From Planctomycetota bacterium (GTDB lineage Bacteria > Planctomycetota > Planctomycetia > Pirellulales > Pirellulaceae), in the NCBI GenBank assembly GCA_963204915.1, contig CAUJHS010000063.1:1-64000 (forward strand): 64,000 nucleotides of DNA, given 5' to 3'. The notes under the pieces are model-generated. The model was not told the DNA's origin. It searched no databases and saw only the letters and a list, made by a program, of their open reading frames with translations. The translations under genes were made by a program, and so were the position numbers. Positions 54,541-64,000 of this stretch are shown in pieces. Position 1 is the first letter of the stretch. Every line of letters starts with the position of its first letter.

Positions 54541-54668
54541 CCCCGGCAACATTCGCGGGGCGGGTAGTCAGCCGCAGCGGGAACTCCTCGCAGGACGGCT
54601 CGCGAATGGTCCCTGCGATGACGGCCCGGTCATTATTCAAACGCATCCTGTCTCTTTCGTATCGGTGC

Positions 54669-55388
54669 ATGAAGATCTTACTGACCAACGACGACGGCAT
54701 TGACGCTCCCGGCTTGGAAGCGCTGGAGCAAGCGATGTCGCACTTTGGCGCCGTGGTGGTGGTAGCGCCCGACCAGCCGTTGTCGGGTTGCAGCCATCGG
54801 GCCACGACCGATGAAGTCCTGCGTGTGACGGAGCGCGGGCCCGCGCGGTTCGCCGTCAGCGGCTCGCCGGCCGATTGCGTGCGACTCGCGCTGCTGTATT
54901 TCGCCGAGGATGTGGACTGGGTCGTGTCGGGGGTTAACGATGGCGGCAACCTGGGTGTCGATGTGTACCTGTCGGGCACCGTCGCGGCGGCGCGCGAGGC
55001 GGCTTTGTTCGGCAAGCGCGCCGTGGCGATGTCCCAGTATCGCCGCGGAAAAACCGTCGTGTGGCCGCGGGCTGCGGCGGCGGCCCGGCTTGCCTTTGCT
55101 CAGTTGCTAGCGCATGAACTTTCGCCGACTTCGTTCTGGAATGTGAACTTCCCCGACTGGGGCCAAGTTGAACTTCAGTCCGGTTCGGCCGAGTCGCTGC
55201 CGGACGTGACCTTCGCCGAGTTGGACCTGCATCCGCTGCCCGTGGCGTACCAGCGCCAGGACGAGGGGTATTTGTTCCGCAGCGATTACCACAACCGCCG
55301 ACGGCGGACCGGCGGCGACGTCGACGTTTGTTTCTCCGGCGGTATCGCCGTCACGCAAATACATCCCACCAACGTCGCGAAGCCCTGA
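54669..55388 (+). CDS. surE: 5'/3'-nucleotidase SurE
   Basis: The 239-residue survival protein E dephosphorylates nucleoside monophosphates. The metal-binding start KILLTNDDGIDAPGL carries Asp8 and Asp9. VVVAPDQPLSGCS holds the conserved Ser, and SGVNDGGNLGVDVYLSGTVA the conserved Asn. The ATG at 54669 gives the family N-terminus. The stop is 9 bases before the next promoter's -35, so the gene ends this unit. Confidence 0.94.
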   Translation: MKILLTNDDGIDAPGLEALEQAMSHFGAVVVVAPDQPLSGCSHRATTDEVLRVTERGPARFAVSGSPADCVRLALLYFAEDVDWVVSGVNDGGNLGVDVYLSGTVAAAREAALFGKRAVAMSQYRRGKTVVWPRAAAAARLAFAQLLAHELSPTSFWNVNFPDWGQVELQSGSAESLPDVTFAELDLHPLPVAYQRQDEGYLFRSDYHNRRRRTGGDVDVCFSGGIAVTQIHPTNVAKP

Positions 55389-55397
55389 ACGACGGGG

Positions 55398-55425
55398 TTG
55401 ACATTTCGTCCCGGTTGCTTATTCT
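55398..55425 (+). promoter_or_regulatory. Sigma-70-type promoter of the phosphatase-cytochrome operon
   Basis: A perfect TTGACA (55398-55403), a 16-base spacer and TATTCT (55420-55425) predict a start near 55432, 37 bases before the GTG at 55469. It separates this pair from surE. Confidence 0.6.
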
Positions 55426-55468
55426 GTACGAAAACTAAAAAACCAAAAATGATAGGCGCGGGGGAGAC

Positions 55469-56344
55469 GTGCAGCAAACTCAACCACTGCGGTTCTGCAT
55501 CGCAATCTTGTACTTCGCTGGAGTGGTCGCCGCGGCGCTGGGCGAGGAGGATTCGCCCCAGGCGCCGGAAAACTTCTTGCAAGCTTCGCCGCGCGTATTC
55601 GTTGGCGGCGAACCGCACGACGAGGCCATGTTTGCATTCCTGGCGAAGTCGGGAATCCAAGCCATCGTTAGCGTGGATGGCGCTCGCCCGAACCTGGAAG
55701 CCGCGGCAAAACACGGTTTGCGTTACATCCATATTCCCATTGGTTATGACGGCGTTCCACCCGAAGCCGCGGCAGCGCTGGCGCGGCTAGCCCGAGACGT
55801 GCCGGGACCGATTTTCATCCATTGCCATCACGGCAAACATCGTGGTCCGGCGGCGGCGGCCGTCGCGTGTCTGGCGATGAATGAGTTGAGCAAGGCCGAA
55901 GCGCGCGTGTTGCTCGAACGTGCCGGCACAAGCCCGAACTACCGCGGACTCTGGCGCGACGTGGATGCATGGCGTCCGCCGTCCGCCGATGCCGTATTGC
56001 CCGAGCTTGTGGCCGAAGCGAAGGTCGATTCCCTGGCGGCCGCCATGTCGAAAATCGATCGGAGCTTTGATCGACTCAAATTGATCGCCGCCGCAGGATG
56101 GCGCCCTCCGGCCGATCATCCTGATCTTGCGCCGCGGCAAGAGGCGCTGTTATTGCGCGAACAATTGCGAGAGTCTTCTCGCCATTTATCGGGCGATTAC
56201 GACGAGCGTTTCAAAGCCTGGATGGTCGAAGCCGAACGCGGCGCCCAAGCCCTGGAGCTTGAATTGGCGAAGCCCGCCGCAAGGGCGCATTGCAAAACAC
56301 TGGAAACCTCCTGCAAGCGTTGCCATGAAGCCTACCGTGATTGA
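55469..56344 (+). CDS. Secreted tyrosine-phosphatase-like domain fused to cytochrome c'
   Basis: The 291-residue product has a signal peptide (about 1-25, ending AAALGEE). A Cys-based phosphatase domain follows (about 35-180): FVGGEPHDEAMFAFLAKSGI and the P-loop HCHHGKHRG, with Cys119 and Arg125 in the CX5R pattern and an upstream IPIGYDGVPP acid-loop region. The C-terminal ~110 residues form a four-helix, cytochrome c'-like bundle (SLAAAMSKIDRSFDRLKLIA, ERFKAWMVEAERGAQALELE) ending in a c-type heme site CKRCHEAYRD, with Cys282, Cys285 and His286. The pairing of exported phosphatase and heme is unusual. GTG start; the Shine-Dalgarno is close. The next gene starts after 10 bases. Confidence 0.82.
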   Translation: MQQTQPLRFCIAILYFAGVVAAALGEEDSPQAPENFLQASPRVFVGGEPHDEAMFAFLAKSGIQAIVSVDGARPNLEAAAKHGLRYIHIPIGYDGVPPEAAAALARLARDVPGPIFIHCHHGKHRGPAAAAVACLAMNELSKAEARVLLERAGTSPNYRGLWRDVDAWRPPSADAVLPELVAEAKVDSLAAAMSKIDRSFDRLKLIAAAGWRPPADHPDLAPRQEALLLREQLRESSRHLSGDYDERFKAWMVEAERGAQALELELAKPAARAHCKTLETSCKRCHEAYRD

Positions 56345-56354
56345 AAGCGTTTTG

Positions 56355-57371
56355 ATGAAACGCAGGGGAAAAATCGTCATCGCTGCGGTATTGCTGCTTG
56401 CGGGGGGGTGCTGGTCGGCAAGTCCTTCGCAGGTCGTGGTGTATACGGCGCTGGATCGCGAATTCTCGGAACCGATCTTTCGCGAGTTCGAGCAAACGTC
56501 GGGCGTCTCGGTCGAGCCGAAGTTCGACGTCGAGTCGACCAAAACGGTTGGGCTCGTGAATGCGATCTTGCAGGAAAAGAATCGACCACGCTGCGATGTC
56601 TTCTGGAACAACGAAATTCTCCATACCTTGCGATTGGAGAAAGCCGGTTTGCTCGAACCCTATAAACTGCCGCAGGCCGAAAAGTTTCCTGCCAATTATC
56701 GCTCGCCCACAGGAACCTGGTATGGCTTCGCCGCACGCGCTCGGGTGCTCCTTGTGAATACCGAACTCGTGCCCGAGAACGAACGACCGTCGTCGATCCA
56801 AGACCTGTCCAATCCGCGTTGGAAAGACCAGTGTGGGTTGGCGCTCCCATTGTTCGGCACGACGGCGACTCACGCGGCGGTGTTGTTCGCACAGTGGGGT
56901 GAAAGCGACGCCAAGCAGTTCTTCCGCGAAGTGAAGCAGAACGCGCAGGTTCTTTCGGGCAATAAGCAAGTCGCGCTGTCCGTGGGCCGGGGACAGCTCG
57001 CATTCGGCTTGACCGACACGGACGACGCGATTGTCGAAATCGAAAAAGGCATGCCGGTCGAGATCGTCTATCCCGATCAAGGCGAGGGGCAGCTTGGTGC
57101 GCTCTTCATTCCTAATACGTTGTGTTTGATTCGCGGCGCCGCCCATCGCGCCTCGGCCGAGGCGCTGATGCAGTATTTGCTCACTCCGCAGGTGGAGCAA
57201 AAACTGGCCGAGGGCCCCAGTGCGCAATTTCCCCTACATGCCGACGCGACAGCACAGCCGCGCATCGCCGACGCTTCCGTCCGCGGGATGGATGTGGACT
57301 TCTCGGCCGCCGCCGACGCGTGGGAAACCGCCTCCCAATTCTTCCGCGAGGAATACGTCACCGCGGAATGA
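56355..57371 (+). CDS. Extracellular solute-binding lipoprotein (iron(III)-type)
   Basis: The 338-residue product has a signal sequence and a lipobox-like LLAGGC with Cys19. It matches the periplasmic-binding-protein class that includes FbpA/FutA ferric binders: VVVYTALDREFSEPIFREFE, CDVFWNNEILHTLRLEKAGL, TGTWYGFAARARVLLVNTEL, LSNPRWKDQCGLALPLFG and GQLAFGLTDTDDA. Iron as ligand is inferred from the family; the full ferric Tyr pair is not certain. No ABC permease or ATPase is adjacent, so it is an orphan. It is cotranscribed with the phosphatase-cytochrome gene. Confidence 0.8.
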   Translation: MKRRGKIVIAAVLLLAGGCWSASPSQVVVYTALDREFSEPIFREFEQTSGVSVEPKFDVESTKTVGLVNAILQEKNRPRCDVFWNNEILHTLRLEKAGLLEPYKLPQAEKFPANYRSPTGTWYGFAARARVLLVNTELVPENERPSSIQDLSNPRWKDQCGLALPLFGTTATHAAVLFAQWGESDAKQFFREVKQNAQVLSGNKQVALSVGRGQLAFGLTDTDDAIVEIEKGMPVEIVYPDQGEGQLGALFIPNTLCLIRGAAHRASAEALMQYLLTPQVEQKLAEGPSAQFPLHADATAQPRIADASVRGMDVDFSAAADAWETASQFFREEYVTAE

Positions 57372-57406: not shown

Positions 57407-60400
57407 TCAGGATGGAGCGCATGCCACGTCGGCCGCCAATTGCGCGAGCACAGCTTCCCAGGCGTCTTCTTCATCGTCCTCCACATTCGGGATGAAGACG
57501 AATTCCGCAGACGCCACGACCGACGGCGGGAATGATTCCTCCGTCGGCGGCGTTTCGCCTTCTCCCTGGCCGGCGTTCTGCAGGTCGCGGAGAGCGCGCA
57601 CCACTATTAGCAAATCGTTGACCGAGGCGATGTCGTCGCCGTCGACGTTGGCCAGAGTATCGCCGGCTTGCGGGGGAGTGCTAAACTCGAAACCCAGGCC
57701 GTTGTCGCGCAGGAATTGCACCACCGCCAGCAAGTCGGAGATATCGACATCGCCGTCGCCGTCCACATCTTCACGGAATGTCTCGTCGCGTTGCCAAAGC
57801 AAATTTACTGGCTCGGATACGTCGATGGTGATCGTCGCCACGTTCGAGACGCCGCCTTGGTTGTCCCGGACCGTGTAGGTGAAGTCGTCAAAGCCGTGGA
57901 AGCCTTCTGCGGGCGTGTAGGTGATCTTGCCATCGACGCCGACCGTCGCGGTTCCGTCTTCCGGCCCGGTCACGATCGCGGCGCTGAGCGGATCGATCGT
58001 GCCGTCCGCGTCTGTGGCGCCGGCCGCCACGTCGAAGGTAATCGGTTCGCCAGGACCCGTGCTCTCGGCGAAGTTTTTGGCCACCGGCAGTTCGTTCATC
58101 GTTTCGACGACGTCGTTCACGTGGATCGTGATCGTCTTGGTGTCGGACAGGCCGCGGGGATCCGTGTAGATGACCTGGACCAACTGACTGCTTGTTGTTT
58201 CGTGGTCGAGCGGGCTGGCAACGAGGATTTTTCCGTCGGCGTCGATTGAGAACAAGACTTGGGGGAAAATGGAAAACGGGTTGCCTTGCCCGGGTGAGTG
58301 ATCATCCGGATCCGTAACGATCACCGTTCCCACCACGGCGCCAATCGGGCTGTTTTCGTCGATCGAGAAGCTTTGATTCGGCAGTATCACCGGCGGTTGG
58401 TTGGCGAGAACCTGCACGGTGAGGTTGGTCACGACGGGCGGACCGCCGGGGCCAATCGCCTCGACCTGGACGGAGAACGTGGGCTTGGTTGCGTGGTCGA
58501 GCGTGGCGCCCGCCTGGAGCGCCAAGCGGTCGGCTGTTCCATTGCTATCGTGATCGATAAGCATGAACGAATTGTTGTCGGCCGCACCGGGGGTCAGGAC
58601 GTAGGTGTAGGTCGAGAAGTTGGGGTTCGTATCCGGATCGTCGGTCCCCAGGGCGCCGATGACGACGGGCTGGCTGGTGTCGGCCACTTCGGAAACCGTG
58701 TTGGACGACAACGTGACTTGCGACGCCGGCTCGTTTTCGTCGAGGACTTGAATGGTGATCGGCTGAATAAGGACCGGGTCGCCGGGGTTCGTGACTAACG
58801 CCACCAACAACAACTCATACGTCGGCTTGGTCTCGAAGTCGAGCGTCTGGCCCGCCTTCAGCGCCAGGGTTTCGAAGCGTTCGTCATTGTCTAGATCGAG
58901 GACTTCGAACGCACTCAGGTCGGGAGAGTCGACGTGCGGCACGATGGTATAGGCCGCGCCGGCGTCGGGATCGTTCGTCGTCAGCGTGCCGATGATGACC
59001 TGGCCGCTGGTGTCGGCCAGTTCGGAAATGGTGTTGGACGAGAGGAGGATTTGCGTCGGCGGCTCGTCCACATTGGTGAGGCTGATCGTAATTGTCGCCG
59101 TGGCCGAAGCGGGGGGCGTCGCATTGTCCGTGACTGTGACCGCGAGCGAATAGGAGTTCGTCCCTTCGAAGTTCAAGACGGCGCCCGTGGCGACGGTCAA
59201 TTGACCCGTCTTGGAATCGATCGTGAATTTCTCCTGGCCCGCGCCGCCGGTGATGGCGTAGGTGAGTGACTGACCGAAATCCGGGTCGCTCGCCGAGACC
59301 GTGCCCACGACGGTTCCCAAGGGGCTGTTTTCCGGCGCTGCGAACTCCTGCTCTTCCACCACCGGCGGTCGATTGGGGTGCTGATTGCCAAAGTTGATGC
59401 CCGTCTTGGGGGCGGTGTCTGCCACGGTAATGATGTGCGGCGCGTTACTTCCTGGGAACGTTTGTTTGAGTCCCTGCGGCCGAGTTTGCACCACGAAATG
59501 CTCGCCGTTGAACGCTCCGATGCGAGGGGGCACGCGCGGAATCCGGTAGTTTCCGTGCGCGTCGGTCGTCGCCGTGGGAACAGATTGGTTCAAGCTAATT
59601 AGATTGATCACGCCGTCGCCCGTCAGGCGATACGCCACCGCATAGGCAGCGTCGGCCGTGTCGAGGGAGGCGGCAATAAAGTCATGGCCCGCGGCAACCA
59701 CCTTCGTCGCTGCGGATAACTGTTCGTCGCGGCTGTCGTAGAGCGTGATGGCAAAGTGGCTGTCCGTCGTGGCGAACGTCGAGAGAGCGACGGCTTTGGC
59801 GGGTTCGTAGAAGTCAATTCGCAGGGCGTTGTCGGCCGTGAAGGAGGTGTCGTTGGCGCCGTGCGCGAAGACGAACTCGTTGGCGCTCTCCGTCAGGGGG
59901 TTGTCCACTACGCGGATCGGATGCGTGTCGGAGGAGCGTTGCCGGGCGCCGTCGTCGGCGGCCGTCAGCGTGACCGAGCGGAAGAAATTCTGGAGCGAGG
60001 GGTTCACCGCAGGAGGATTCGGCGGCGGAAAGTCATTCGCCTGAATGGAAACCATGTCCTCAGTGAAAAATCCGACGCGGACTGGGACGTTGAACATGCC
60101 CCGTTCGGTTTCTTGCTTGATTCCGTCGCCGTTGGCGTCTTCGAACACCTGACCCGAAACGGTGGCGAAGAAGTTCGACGCGCCTACGTGTTCCAGGTGG
60201 CGACCGGCAAAGCTCCCCGGAACCGTGAAGCCGTTGTCCAAGCGATAGTTCGAACTTAGGAATGAGACTTCTACCGCCTTGGCGCCGATCCATGCGGGCG
60301 GCGCCGAGCCGACAGAGTCGCCACTGCGCCCGACCCAGGAAACTTCGTGGGTGCGTACGATTTCGAAAGGCGCCTCCGCGACGATCTCCGCACTATGTTC

Positions 60401-61063
60401 CGCGAAGATCAGCGGGGAATAAGAAATACTGCCGATGCCGAAGTTGACCACGGCCACGCTATCGAGAATCGTCCAAGCGGCCGCATCACCGTCACGAATG
60501 GCATTGTCGTCCCCGTCGATGTCCTGGCCGACGGTGGGGGGCGTGGCGGACTGAATCAACAGGAATGTGGTCGGCTCCAGGAAGAATTCGGCGAGGGTGT
60601 TGCCCGTCAGCGAGTTGTCGCTGAACCGGTCCGTTCCATCCGGATCGCCGGGCGCCTTCATCCCGCCGAAACCATCGCTGCCGGTCAGCTCCGTGGCGTC
60701 GGGATGGACATTGTAGGAGTCGTCGACCTCGTGCTGCGTGAGGACCAGGAAGCCATTGGCGCCCAGTTTCACATTGGAGAGGTCGAACATCGCGCGCACG
60801 TTGCCGGAGTTGCCCAGCCCATCGACCGCTACCAGGTACGTGCCACTGGCCAGGACTTCGCCGGGTTCGCCGCGAATCTCGACGTACTGATCCAAGTTGT
60901 GCTGAGGGAACTCGGCGGGCATTTGAATCTCGTTAATCACGGGCGCCAACACGCGCCGCGACTCCAAGGACTCGAACCGAGGACGGCGTCCGTAAGAACG
61001 CCTCGCCCGTTGGCGGGATTGGCGTGCGGCAAGCACCTTATGACGCGGGTGGACCGAAAGCAT
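57407..61063 (-). CDS. Giant secreted cadherin/dockerin protein, paralog 1
   Basis: The 1218-residue product has an atypical basic leader ending in PRFESLESRRVLAPV, the recurrent planctomycete 'LESRRxLA' N-terminal motif. Next come a lamin-tail-like region (INEIQMPAEFPQHNLDQYVE), an SdrD-B-like segment (ISGQVFEDANGDGIKQETE in type), and four to five cadherin-type repeats (VVEEQEFAAPENSPLGTVVG, AVVGTVIVTDPDD). A Big_9/VCBS-like domain (KITYTPAEGFHGFDDFTYTV) and a dockerin-like pair follow (DVDGDGDVDISDLLAVVQFL, DGDDIASVNDLLIVVRALRD). The end is an acidic tail, WEAVLAQLAADVA. It is probably an exported adhesin or envelope protein bound through calcium-dependent domains. ATG at 61061-61063, with a promoter upstream. 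Confidence 0.85.
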   Translation of the reverse strand: MLSVHPRHKVLAARQSRQRARRSYGRRPRFESLESRRVLAPVINEIQMPAEFPQHNLDQYVEIRGEPGEVLASGTYLVAVDGLGNSGNVRAMFDLSNVKLGANGFLVLTQHEVDDSYNVHPDATELTGSDGFGGMKAPGDPDGTDRFSDNSLTGNTLAEFFLEPTTFLLIQSATPPTVGQDIDGDDNAIRDGDAAAWTILDSVAVVNFGIGSISYSPLIFAEHSAEIVAEAPFEIVRTHEVSWVGRSGDSVGSAPPAWIGAKAVEVSFLSSNYRLDNGFTVPGSFAGRHLEHVGASNFFATVSGQVFEDANGDGIKQETERGMFNVPVRVGFFTEDMVSIQANDFPPPNPPAVNPSLQNFFRSVTLTAADDGARQRSSDTHPIRVVDNPLTESANEFVFAHGANDTSFTADNALRIDFYEPAKAVALSTFATTDSHFAITLYDSRDEQLSAATKVVAAGHDFIAASLDTADAAYAVAYRLTGDGVINLISLNQSVPTATTDAHGNYRIPRVPPRIGAFNGEHFVVQTRPQGLKQTFPGSNAPHIITVADTAPKTGINFGNQHPNRPPVVEEQEFAAPENSPLGTVVGTVSASDPDFGQSLTYAITGGAGQEKFTIDSKTGQLTVATGAVLNFEGTNSYSLAVTVTDNATPPASATATITISLTNVDEPPTQILLSSNTISELADTSGQVIIGTLTTNDPDAGAAYTIVPHVDSPDLSAFEVLDLDNDERFETLALKAGQTLDFETKPTYELLLVALVTNPGDPVLIQPITIQVLDENEPASQVTLSSNTVSEVADTSQPVVIGALGTDDPDTNPNFSTYTYVLTPGAADNNSFMLIDHDSNGTADRLALQAGATLDHATKPTFSVQVEAIGPGGPPVVTNLTVQVLANQPPVILPNQSFSIDENSPIGAVVGTVIVTDPDDHSPGQGNPFSIFPQVLFSIDADGKILVASPLDHETTSSQLVQVIYTDPRGLSDTKTITIHVNDVVETMNELPVAKNFAESTGPGEPITFDVAAGATDADGTIDPLSAAIVTGPEDGTATVGVDGKITYTPAEGFHGFDDFTYTVRDNQGGVSNVATITIDVSEPVNLLWQRDETFREDVDGDGDVDISDLLAVVQFLRDNGLGFEFSTPPQAGDTLANVDGDDIASVNDLLIVVRALRDLQNAGQGEGETPPTEESFPPSVVASAEFVFIPNVEDDEEDAWEAVLAQLAADVACAPS

Positions 61064-61290: not shown

Positions 61291-64000
61291 TTAGCCTCGG
61301 GCCGTTGCGACATCAGCGGCCATTTGCTGAAGCACCGCTTCCCAAGATTCCTCTTCCTCGTTGTCGTCGGTCTGCGGAAGGAAGAGGAATACGGGAGGGG
61401 ACACAGACGGCGACACAGCCGCTACGTCCATCGGAGCGGGGGCTTCCGCTTCCCCCTGAACAGCGCTCTGCTGGTCGCGGAGAGCGCGCACCACCATTAG
61501 CAAATCGTTGACCGAGGCGATGTCGTCGCCGTCCACGTTGGCCAAGGTGTCGTCCGGCTGCGGGGGGGTGGTGAACTCGAAACCCAGGCCGTTGTCGCGC
61601 AGGAATTGCACCACCGCCAGCAAGTCGGAGATATCGACATCGCCGTCGCCGTCCACATCTTCACGGAACATCCCGTCGTTTTGCCATTCCAAGGACACTG
61701 GCTCCGAGACGTCGATGGTGATCGTCGCCACGTTCGAGACGCCGCCTTGGTTGTCCTGGACCGTGTAGGTGAAGTCATCGAAGCCGTGGAAGCCTTCTGC
61801 GGGCGTGTAAGTGATCCTGCCGTCGGCGCCGACCGTCGCCGTGCCGTCTTGCGGCCCAGTCACGATCGCGGCGCTTAAGGGATCGATCGTCCCGTCGGCG
61901 TCGGTGGCTTGGGCCGCCACGTCGAACGTGATCGACTCCCCGGGGCCAATGCTTTCGGCGAAGTTCTTGGCGACCGGCGGTTCGTTCTCGTCGGCCACGT
62001 CGGTCACCCTGACGGTGATGGTCGCGAAGTCGTTTAAGCCAGTGGGGTCGGTGATGGTCACAGGGAACGTGTGAACTCTTTGTGCTTCAAAGTCAAGGGC
62101 GGCCGTCGTTGTGATGACGCCGTCGGCGTCGATCGCGAAAGGCATGTCGCCGACCGAAAGCGAAAACGAGCTGCCCGGCTCCAGGCCGCTTTCCGCGTCG
62201 GGATCGGTGGCGATCACCGTGCCCACGACCGTTCCCGCGTCCAGGTTTTCCGCCACGGTGAATTGCTGAGGTTCGACCTGCGGCGGTTCCTCCTCGTTCG
62301 CGACCTCGACGGTGAGGGTGGTGATCACGGTCGATTCGCCGCTAAACGCATGGACCTCGACGGTCAACGTGGGCTGGTCTTCGTGGTCCAGCGTCACGCC
62401 AGCCTTGAGCGCCAGATCGAATTTCCCCTCGGCGTCCGGACCGACCAGCTCGAACAAGTGGTTGTCTTCCACGTCGGGCGGCAGGGCGAACGTGTAACTA
62501 TTGAAGGCGGTTGTCGTGTCGGGATCGTCGGTTCCCAAGGCGCCGATAATGACCGGGCTACTGGTGTGGGCCAGTTCGGAAACGGTGTTGGACGATAACG
62601 TCACTTTCGTCGCCGGCTCGTTTTCGTCGAGGACGTGAATCGCCACGCTGCTAGGTGCACGATTTTGGAAAAAATCGATGCGTTCAATAAACGCCGGAAC
62701 AGGGCCAGCAAAAACTTCGAAGTCGACCCCTACGCCCTCCTTGAGCGCCAGGGCGTCGAAGCGTCCATCGTTATTGTGATCGACGATTTCGAAGAACGGT
62801 GAATCTTGATCCAATTCAAACGTATAGGAGTTGAAAGCGGTGTTTGGCGTGTCGGGATCATTGGTCGTTATCGTACCGATGACGTATCCGCTGCTGGTGT
62901 CGGCAAGCTCAGGAATCCCATTGGGCGTGACGATGAGTTCCGTCGCCGGTTCATTCACGTCGCCAATCGCGATGGTGACCGTCGCCGTCGTCGTGGCGGA
63001 GGGCGTCGCATTGTCCGTGACCTGGACCTCGAGCGTATAGGAGTTCGTCTCCGCTTCGAAGTTCAAGACGGCGCCCTCGGCGACGGTCAAAGCGCCCGTT
63101 TCAGGATTGATCTCGAACTCCTCCTGTCCCGTGCCGCCCGTGATGGCGTAAGTGAGCGTCTGCCCGGCGTCCGGGTCGCTCGCCGCGACCGTGCCCACGA
63201 CGGTTCCCGCGGGGCTGTTTTCCGGCGCTGCGAACTCCTGATCTTCCACCTCCGGCGGTCGATTGGCGCGCTGGACGCCGAAGTTCACGCCTGTCTGGTG
63301 AGTGGTGTTCGTTACCGTGACGCTGTGCGGCGCGTCGTCGGCGGGGAACGTTTGCGTAAAACCCTCGGGCGGAGTTTGCCTCACCTGATGAACGCCGTCG
63401 AACGCTCCTAACGAGGGCGCGACGCGGGAGAATTGATAGTCGCCATTCGCGTCGGTCGTCACCGTGCGATTGGCAGGGCTGACCGAAACGCCCGTGATGA
63501 CGCCGTCGCCCGATTCGACATACGCCACGGCGTAGGCAATGTCGGCCGTTTCGCGGCCAAACAAAAACAAGGCGCTTGTTGGTGAAAATACTACGGTTGT
63601 TTGCGTATCTTCTGGCAAGGGCTCGCCAAGGCTGTTGAACAGCTTGATTGCAACCTGGCTGGGAGTGCTGGGCGTCGACTCCCGAAATCGAACGCCGACT
63701 TCGCTGACGGGTTCGTACAAGTCGATGCGCAGGCGGTTGTCGGTCGTGAAGGCCGTGTCACTGGCGCCGTGTGCGAAGGCGAACGCGTCGGGGTCCGTGG
63801 TGTTGGGATCGTCCACCACGCGGACGCTGTGGGTGTCGGCGGGGTGTTGCCAGTTGGTTGCGTCGGCCGTCGTCAGCGTGAGAAACGGGAAGGCGTTCTG
63901 GATGGACGGGTTCGGCTCAGGCGCCGCCGGCGGCGGCAACATCTCCGCGTTGAAGGAAAAGTTGTTGTTGGCGAAATTTCCGAGGGTCACGGCCACATTC
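61291..64000 (-). CDS. Giant secreted cadherin/dockerin protein, paralog 2 (5' end outside window)
   Basis: More than 900 C-terminal residues are visible; the frame is open through the window edge and aligns with the middle of paralog 1 (NVAVTLGNF against NVPVRVGFF), so the GTG near 63996 is not the true start. Order: SdrD-B-like segment, cadherin repeats (QEFAAPENSPAGTVVGTVAA, QQFTVAENLDAGTVVGTVIA), the Big_9-like domain, the dockerin-like pair DVDGDGDVDISDLLAVVQFL and VDGDDIASVNDLLMVVRALR, then an acidic tail with WEAVLQQMAADVA. DNA identity with paralog 1 is very high in the dockerin region. Probably an envelope or matrix protein. Confidence 0.85.
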   Translation of the reverse strand, partial: NVAVTLGNFANNNFSFNAEMLPPPAAPEPNPSIQNAFPFLTLTTADATNWQHPADTHSVRVVDDPNTTDPDAFAFAHGASDTAFTTDNRLRIDLYEPVSEVGVRFRESTPSTPSQVAIKLFNSLGEPLPEDTQTTVVFSPTSALFLFGRETADIAYAVAYVESGDGVITGVSVSPANRTVTTDANGDYQFSRVAPSLGAFDGVHQVRQTPPEGFTQTFPADDAPHSVTVTNTTHQTGVNFGVQRANRPPEVEDQEFAAPENSPAGTVVGTVAASDPDAGQTLTYAITGGTGQEEFEINPETGALTVAEGAVLNFEAETNSYTLEVQVTDNATPSATTTATVTIAIGDVNEPATELIVTPNGIPELADTSSGYVIGTITTNDPDTPNTAFNSYTFELDQDSPFFEIVDHNNDGRFDALALKEGVGVDFEVFAGPVPAFIERIDFFQNRAPSSVAIHVLDENEPATKVTLSSNTVSELAHTSSPVIIGALGTDDPDTTTAFNSYTFALPPDVEDNHLFELVGPDAEGKFDLALKAGVTLDHEDQPTLTVEVHAFSGESTVITTLTVEVANEEEPPQVEPQQFTVAENLDAGTVVGTVIATDPDAESGLEPGSSFSLSVGDMPFAIDADGVITTTAALDFEAQRVHTFPVTITDPTGLNDFATITVRVTDVADENEPPVAKNFAESIGPGESITFDVAAQATDADGTIDPLSAAIVTGPQDGTATVGADGRITYTPAEGFHGFDDFTYTVQDNQGGVSNVATITIDVSEPVSLEWQNDGMFREDVDGDGDVDISDLLAVVQFLRDNGLGFEFTTPPQPDDTLANVDGDDIASVNDLLMVVRALRDQQSAVQGEAEAPAPMDVAAVSPSVSPPVFLFLPQTDDNEEEESWEAVLQQMAADVATARG

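Follow-up and report, generated by a model that had tools for sequence, protein, structure and literature searches.

A tyrosine-phosphatase fold and a class II cytochrome c domain combined in a predicted exported protein of Planctomycetota

The locus and its genes

We present here a gene from a Pirellulaceae bacterium (assembly GCA_963204915.1) that joins two protein domains in one frame. The window analyzed is a stretch of 64,000 nucleotides of contig CAUJHS010000063.1, and all positions refer to it unless otherwise specified. The gene lies on the plus strand at 55469 to 56344, with a GTG start codon at 55469 and a TGA stop codon ending at 56344, and was delimited from the open reading frame, its homologues, and an AlphaFold2 model. 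As a sequence-only reading of this DNA had claimed, its 291-residue product contains a CX5R phosphatase P-loop and terminates in CKRCHEAYRD. The protein begins with a hydrophobic leader (FCIAILYFAGVVAAALG), predicted to be a Sec signal peptide of about residues 1 to 25 (55469 to 55543), a segment modeled by AlphaFold2 with low confidence. Leaders also precede the matched region in nearly all homologues of the fusion. A domain with the protein tyrosine/dual-specificity phosphatase (PTP/DSP) fold follows at residues 30 to 178 (55556 to 56002), assigned from Foldseek/VIA and phmmer matches, and a class II cytochrome c domain at residues 180 to 291 (56006 to 56341), assigned from PF01322, AlphaFold2, and a PDB profile search. 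The PTP domain contains a candidate general acid, Asp94 (55748 to 55750), and the P-loop HCHHGKHRGP (55820 to 55849), of which HCHHGKHRG forms residues 118 to 126; here, Cys119 is the putative nucleophile, Arg125 completes the signature, and Gly126 replaces the usual Ser/Thr. The cytochrome domain contains Met193 (56045 to 56047), a candidate sixth (distal) heme ligand, and the heme c attachment motif CKRCH at residues 282 to 286 (56312 to 56326). An AlphaFold2 model of the full protein, built with 45 homologues (pLDDT 92.3, pTM 0.87), shows the PTP alpha/beta domain followed by helices at residues 189 to 208, 222 to 243, 246 to 264, and 270 to 289, which form a four-helix bundle over residues 189 to 289.

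A promoter of its own had also been ascribed to the gene. A sigma-70-like match, TTGACA-16-TATTCT, is present on the plus strand at 55398 to 55425 and agrees at 10/12 positions, but one such site against about 0.8 expected by chance is not above background. Directly upstream, with an 80-base gap, is a SurE 5′/3′-nucleotidase gene (54606 to 55388, plus strand). It is not kept beside the fusion gene in other genera and was rejected as a constant partner.

A lipoprotein gene (56355 to 57371, plus strand; 338 residues) starts with an ATG at 56355, 10 bases past the stop codon of the fusion gene. Its product belongs to the FbpA-like solute-binding fold family (PF13343, E value of 6e-23) and is homologous to ferric-binding proteins in the PDB (E value of 6e-19), which bears out part of its earlier description as iron type. 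It differs from FbpA-type proteins at the metal site: alignment to 7w3w places the motif TDTDDA (57012 to 57029), invariant among the aligned orthologues, where FbpA has its tandem Fe(III)-binding tyrosines, and neither the lipoprotein nor these orthologues carry that pair. The lipoprotein was correctly described as lacking transporter partners. Neither the window nor 18 relative contexts contain an ABC permease that a genome-derived HMM detects. The window gene and L078 to L095 make up one FbpA-like lipoprotein family with TDTDDA and no adjacent permease. A transmembrane protein next to one orthologue (L111) was considered as a permease and rejected, being a CNNM/CorC protein. The pairing of lipoprotein and PTP genes is kept only in one genome of the same genus (G001, 76% identity); in the other relatives, the lipoprotein orthologues sit apart from the PTP gene. 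The lipoprotein was therefore rejected as a constant partner, and neither its neighborhood nor its metal site, which lacks the tyrosines, supports the suggested link to iron. Farther downstream, the window contains two adjacent large paralogous genes on the minus strand (57407 to 61063 and 61291 to 63996) for surface-type proteins that carry cadherin-like repeats and whose dockerin-like C-terminal motifs (DVDGDGDVDISDLLAVVQFLRDNGLGFEF) are nearly identical.

Distribution and gene arrangements

A protein search found homologues in about half of 40 relatives. Blastopirellula marina and Rhodopirellula are among the bacteria with homologues. Among 294 sampled Planctomycetota genomes, 161 contain a match at an E value of ≤0.001, and 89 contain a one-frame match covering both domains, counted as rows reaching residue 286 or beyond. 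This recurrence rules out a chance fusion or an assembly error joining two genes. A GTDB-wide scan yielded at least 499 relatives, including assemblies labeled Verrucomicrobia, Lentisphaerota, Hydrogenedentota, Sumerlaeota, and Abditibacteriales. The scan selected on PTP-domain peptides only, with CxxCH outside the search pattern, and CxxCH is present in 79/79 complete frames taken from it. The fusion is thus widespread, but its adjacency to the lipoprotein gene is confined to the genus. No gene neighbor of the fusion is conserved across 20 genomes, and only clade-specific ones occur across about 100 loci; the same 20 genomes and roughly 100 loci contain no conserved neighbor naming a substrate or kinase. 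A second exported family of about 325 to 360 residues with a C-terminal class II CxxCH (L222, L224, L226, L227, L231, L234, and L274) is present in many Pirellulales relatives.

The two domains also occur as separate genes. The closest PTPs that are free of a heme domain, in genomes G040 (HCHAGRHRAS), G170 (HCKNGKHRSA), and G181 (HCHHGKHRGG), are each followed directly, on the same strand, by a class II cytochrome gene. All three cytochromes are predicted to be exported and have a Met aligned at the Met193 position; that of G181, at a profile score of 16 bits, is the weakest match. One further PTP of this kind (G325, HCHGGNHRAG) has no separate cytochrome. Among exported PTPs whose P-loop ends in DRTG or GRTG, 0/17 have a cytochrome within about 3 kb, so far as sequence was available (Fisher p of 0.003 for the comparison with the DRTG type, from small numbers and related genomes). 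The cytochrome thus accompanies the C-x4-H-R type of P-loop, an argument that the two domains are functionally coupled. Conversely, the domains might share a polypeptide only, for tethering or electron storage. PVC hydrolases often carry cytochrome modules, and this family includes further hydrolase fusions, with a 3-keto-disaccharide hydrolase and GDSL in one member (L196) and with NPCBM in another (L005). However, three sisters encode the domains in separate genes side by side, and the P-loop type correlates with the cytochrome; both findings speak against such independence, which we regard as very unlikely.

The phosphatase-fold and heme domains

The N-terminal part matches VHZ, Tk-PTP, DUF442, AtPFA-DSP1, TpbA, and PRL at Z scores of 14 to 17 (Foldseek/VIA), with DUF442 (3gxh) as the top Foldseek match. 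By sequence, phmmer matches the fusion protein to DSP1 (E value of 0.001), several DSP models of Pfam score 16 to 22 bits with the single sequence, all below cut-off, and an NCBIfam model of the sulfurtransferase/dioxygenase Blh matches weakly. Residue conservation was counted over an alignment of 80 homologues. Cys119 and Arg125 of the CX5R signature are present in 80/80, as are the P-loop histidines His118, His120, and His124, while His121 is present in 79/80. Asp94 is present in 73/80, and its position suggests the role of general acid. The cysteine of a PTP P-loop is the nucleophile, and the Ser/Thr that typically follows the Arg in PTPs and DSPs speeds hydrolysis of the phosphocysteine. 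That residue is absent from the window protein (Gly126); the homologues have Gly (65/79), Ala (3/79), or Ser (11/79). Because the hydroxyl residue is usually missing, the cysteine is expected to react slowly or in an altered way, and ordinary fast classical turnover at a P-loop with Gly126 appears doubtful.

PRL phosphatases, with Ala after the P-loop Arg, have a phosphocysteine lifetime of over 1 h (PMC12192612). The fusion protein could likewise be a pseudophosphatase that traps phosphocysteine as a binder and acts on a membrane partner, while the cytochrome reports redox state. The likeness of R-G/A-P to the R-A-P of PRL, the PRL structures among the fold matches, and one open frame that combines a Na/Ca exchanger, a PTP, and a class II cytochrome (L284:3979-5973, minus strand, genome G308) are consistent with this. 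Since only one member shows this fusion and its P-loop is degenerate (VTCETGRDRAA), and no CNNM neighbor of the fusion gene was found, we consider a PRL-like role improbable.

The C-terminal domain alone is modeled by AlphaFold2 as a four-helix class II bundle (pLDDT 92.8), in agreement with the cytochrome c′-type fold first proposed for it. PF01322 (Cytochrom_C_2) is matched by 79/79 homologue C termini. The window protein scores 20.3 bits with the C-terminal part alone and 16.7 bits at full length, against a gathering score of 26.5, which some homologues exceed (e.g., L128 at 28.8). A profile search of the PDB matched cytochrome c′ (E value of 1e-6) and cytochrome b562 (E value of about 2e-5); phmmer with the single C-terminal sequence gave nothing useful there, and only the profile gave matches. 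The VIA structural matches are Kusta0087/0088 (Z of 12.9), cytochromes c′ (about 12), and b562 (about 11.6). Their range of 11.5 to 12.9 is middling and weak alone for helical bundles, but the sequence and motif agree. At the C terminus, the last helix of the bundle shows the class II arrangement, a CxxCH with xxY/F-R directly after it. Met193, Cys282, Cys285, His286, and Arg290 are invariant in this domain (80/80), and no other residues are. CxxCH is the site of covalent heme c attachment, and the source genome carries cytochrome c assembly genes (PF01578), so the protein probably carries heme c.

True cytochromes c′ have a five-coordinate heme with a vacant distal site. In the structural alignment, b562 residues 1 to 106 fall on residues 8 to 111 of the C-terminal model. 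If the first and last helices align without gaps, a register taken from the alignment ends, then Met7 and His102, the axial heme ligands of b562 (PMC7864044), coincide with Met14 and His107 of the model, which are Met193 and His286 of the full protein. A sequence-profile alignment places b562 profile position 17 on residue 7, three residues shifted, which would displace the Met by roughly one turn of the helix. The Met193 position also falls on residue 32 of 6r6m-o, where the depositors' mutants are C32M and C32G. The case for Met193 at the sixth-ligand site is strong, though short of proof, and a low-spin His286/Met193 heme of the c556/b562 type is predicted from sequence and model.

The sequence-only reading had proposed a heme or gas sensor. 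A five-coordinate cytochrome c′ that senses NO or CO and controls the phosphatase would fit the class II fold and CxxCH. The best VIA neighbor of the C-terminal domain, the anammox complex Kusta0087/0088 (6r6o), binds NO according to the title of its paper, as cited in PMC8388095. Nevertheless, the Met at the probable distal ligand position, a site left vacant in true cytochromes c′, is invariant, and this explanation is quite unlikely. Because the same position holds the sixth ligand in low-spin relatives, a six-coordinate electron-transfer heme is favored over a gas sensor.

Possible function and comparison with known systems

We tentatively favor, at somewhat less than even confidence, a redox-gated phosphatase: a periplasmic enzyme of the PTP fold in which the active-site cysteine and a covalent heme c are coupled. 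The P-loop HCHHGxHR would bind an oxyanion, for which a phosphate ester is the simplest candidate, with Cys119 as the nucleophile. The C-terminal class II cytochrome c would be six-coordinate and low spin, its heme ligated axially by His286 and probably by Met193, and would pass electrons to and from redox partners in the periplasm. Whether Cys119 is a reactive thiolate would then depend on the redox state of this heme or on the electrons flowing through it, and the outcome would be a phosphatase gated by respiration or redox state. PTP-type enzymes are redox sensitive at their cysteine. The phosphate-ester setting fits because alkaline phosphatase is fused to the PTP-cytochrome module in three members of one planctomycete clade (L128, L146, and L169). 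The proposed gating is weakened because Gly126 may mean poor turnover, for which PRL offers a precedent (PMC12192612).

Rather than a phosphatase, the protein may be an oxidoreductase built on the PTP fold, in which the P-loop cysteine and the extra histidines act on an oxyanion or sulfur species (of the thiosulfate/persulfide type) and the cytochrome takes or gives electrons. Several findings suit this: the altered P-loop, with C-x4-H-R, invariant His118, His120, and His124, and loss of the Ser/Thr after Arg in 68/79, tracks the cytochrome; the closest Foldseek match is DUF442 and Blh is matched, if weakly; and a His/Met heme is suited to electron transfer. Retention of Asp94, the usual general acid, in most homologues and the alkaline phosphatase fusions, which indicate phosphate esters, count against it, as does the lack of recurring sulfur-oxidation genes near the fusion loci (20 genomes; about 100 loci). 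We judge an oxidoreductase unlikely. The broader proposal that the P-loop cysteine works jointly with a six-coordinate heme c, as either oxidoreductase or redox-gated phosphatase, is possible, with the balance against it.

If this broader proposal is true, then a cysteine-phosphatase scaffold is wired to the electron-transport chain across Planctomycetota and related phyla. Coupled domains would give a large phylum a testable connection from respiration (or oxidant exposure) to phosphate chemistry outside the cytoplasm or, alternatively, would mean that the PTP fold serves a new redox function. Recurrence as both fusion and gene pair makes the PTP-cytochrome link notable. In the open-licence papers searched, no report of a PTP-fold protein fused to a class II cytochrome was found; both families are known, and their combination is new to that literature.

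Known systems share parts of this architecture. Like the fusion, TpbA (PDB 4r0s) is an exported PTP/DSP-fold protein with CX5R (VIA Z of 14.7 over 144 residues), but TpbA and other exported bacterial DSPs have no heme domain and have a canonical P-loop with Ser/Thr after Arg. Plant and fungal PFA-DSPs (AtPFA-DSP1 and Siw14) share the fold (Z of 15) and a C-x4-H-R P-loop with GKHR; they differ in having Thr after Arg and no cytochrome, and they are inositol-pyrophosphate phosphatases. PRL (PTP4A) shares the fold (Z of 14.9), and its P-loop Arg is likewise followed by a small residue that lacks a hydroxyl and then by Pro, but PRL is cytosolic, CAAX anchored, and heme free. Class II cytochromes c (cytochrome c′ and c556; PF01322) share the C-terminal CxxCH, the four-helix bundle, and an Arg after CxxCHxxY. 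The fusion family differs from them in its fused or paired PTP and from five-coordinate cytochromes c′ in its invariant helix A Met. Among the VIA matches, the C-terminal domain is closest to Kusta0087/0088 (NaxL/NaxS; 6r6m-o; Z of 12.9 over 101 residues) of the anammox planctomycete Kuenenia. This complex is a heterodimer without a PTP, and the titles of its Cys32/Cys101 mutant entries suggest a Cys ligand where the fusion family has Met.
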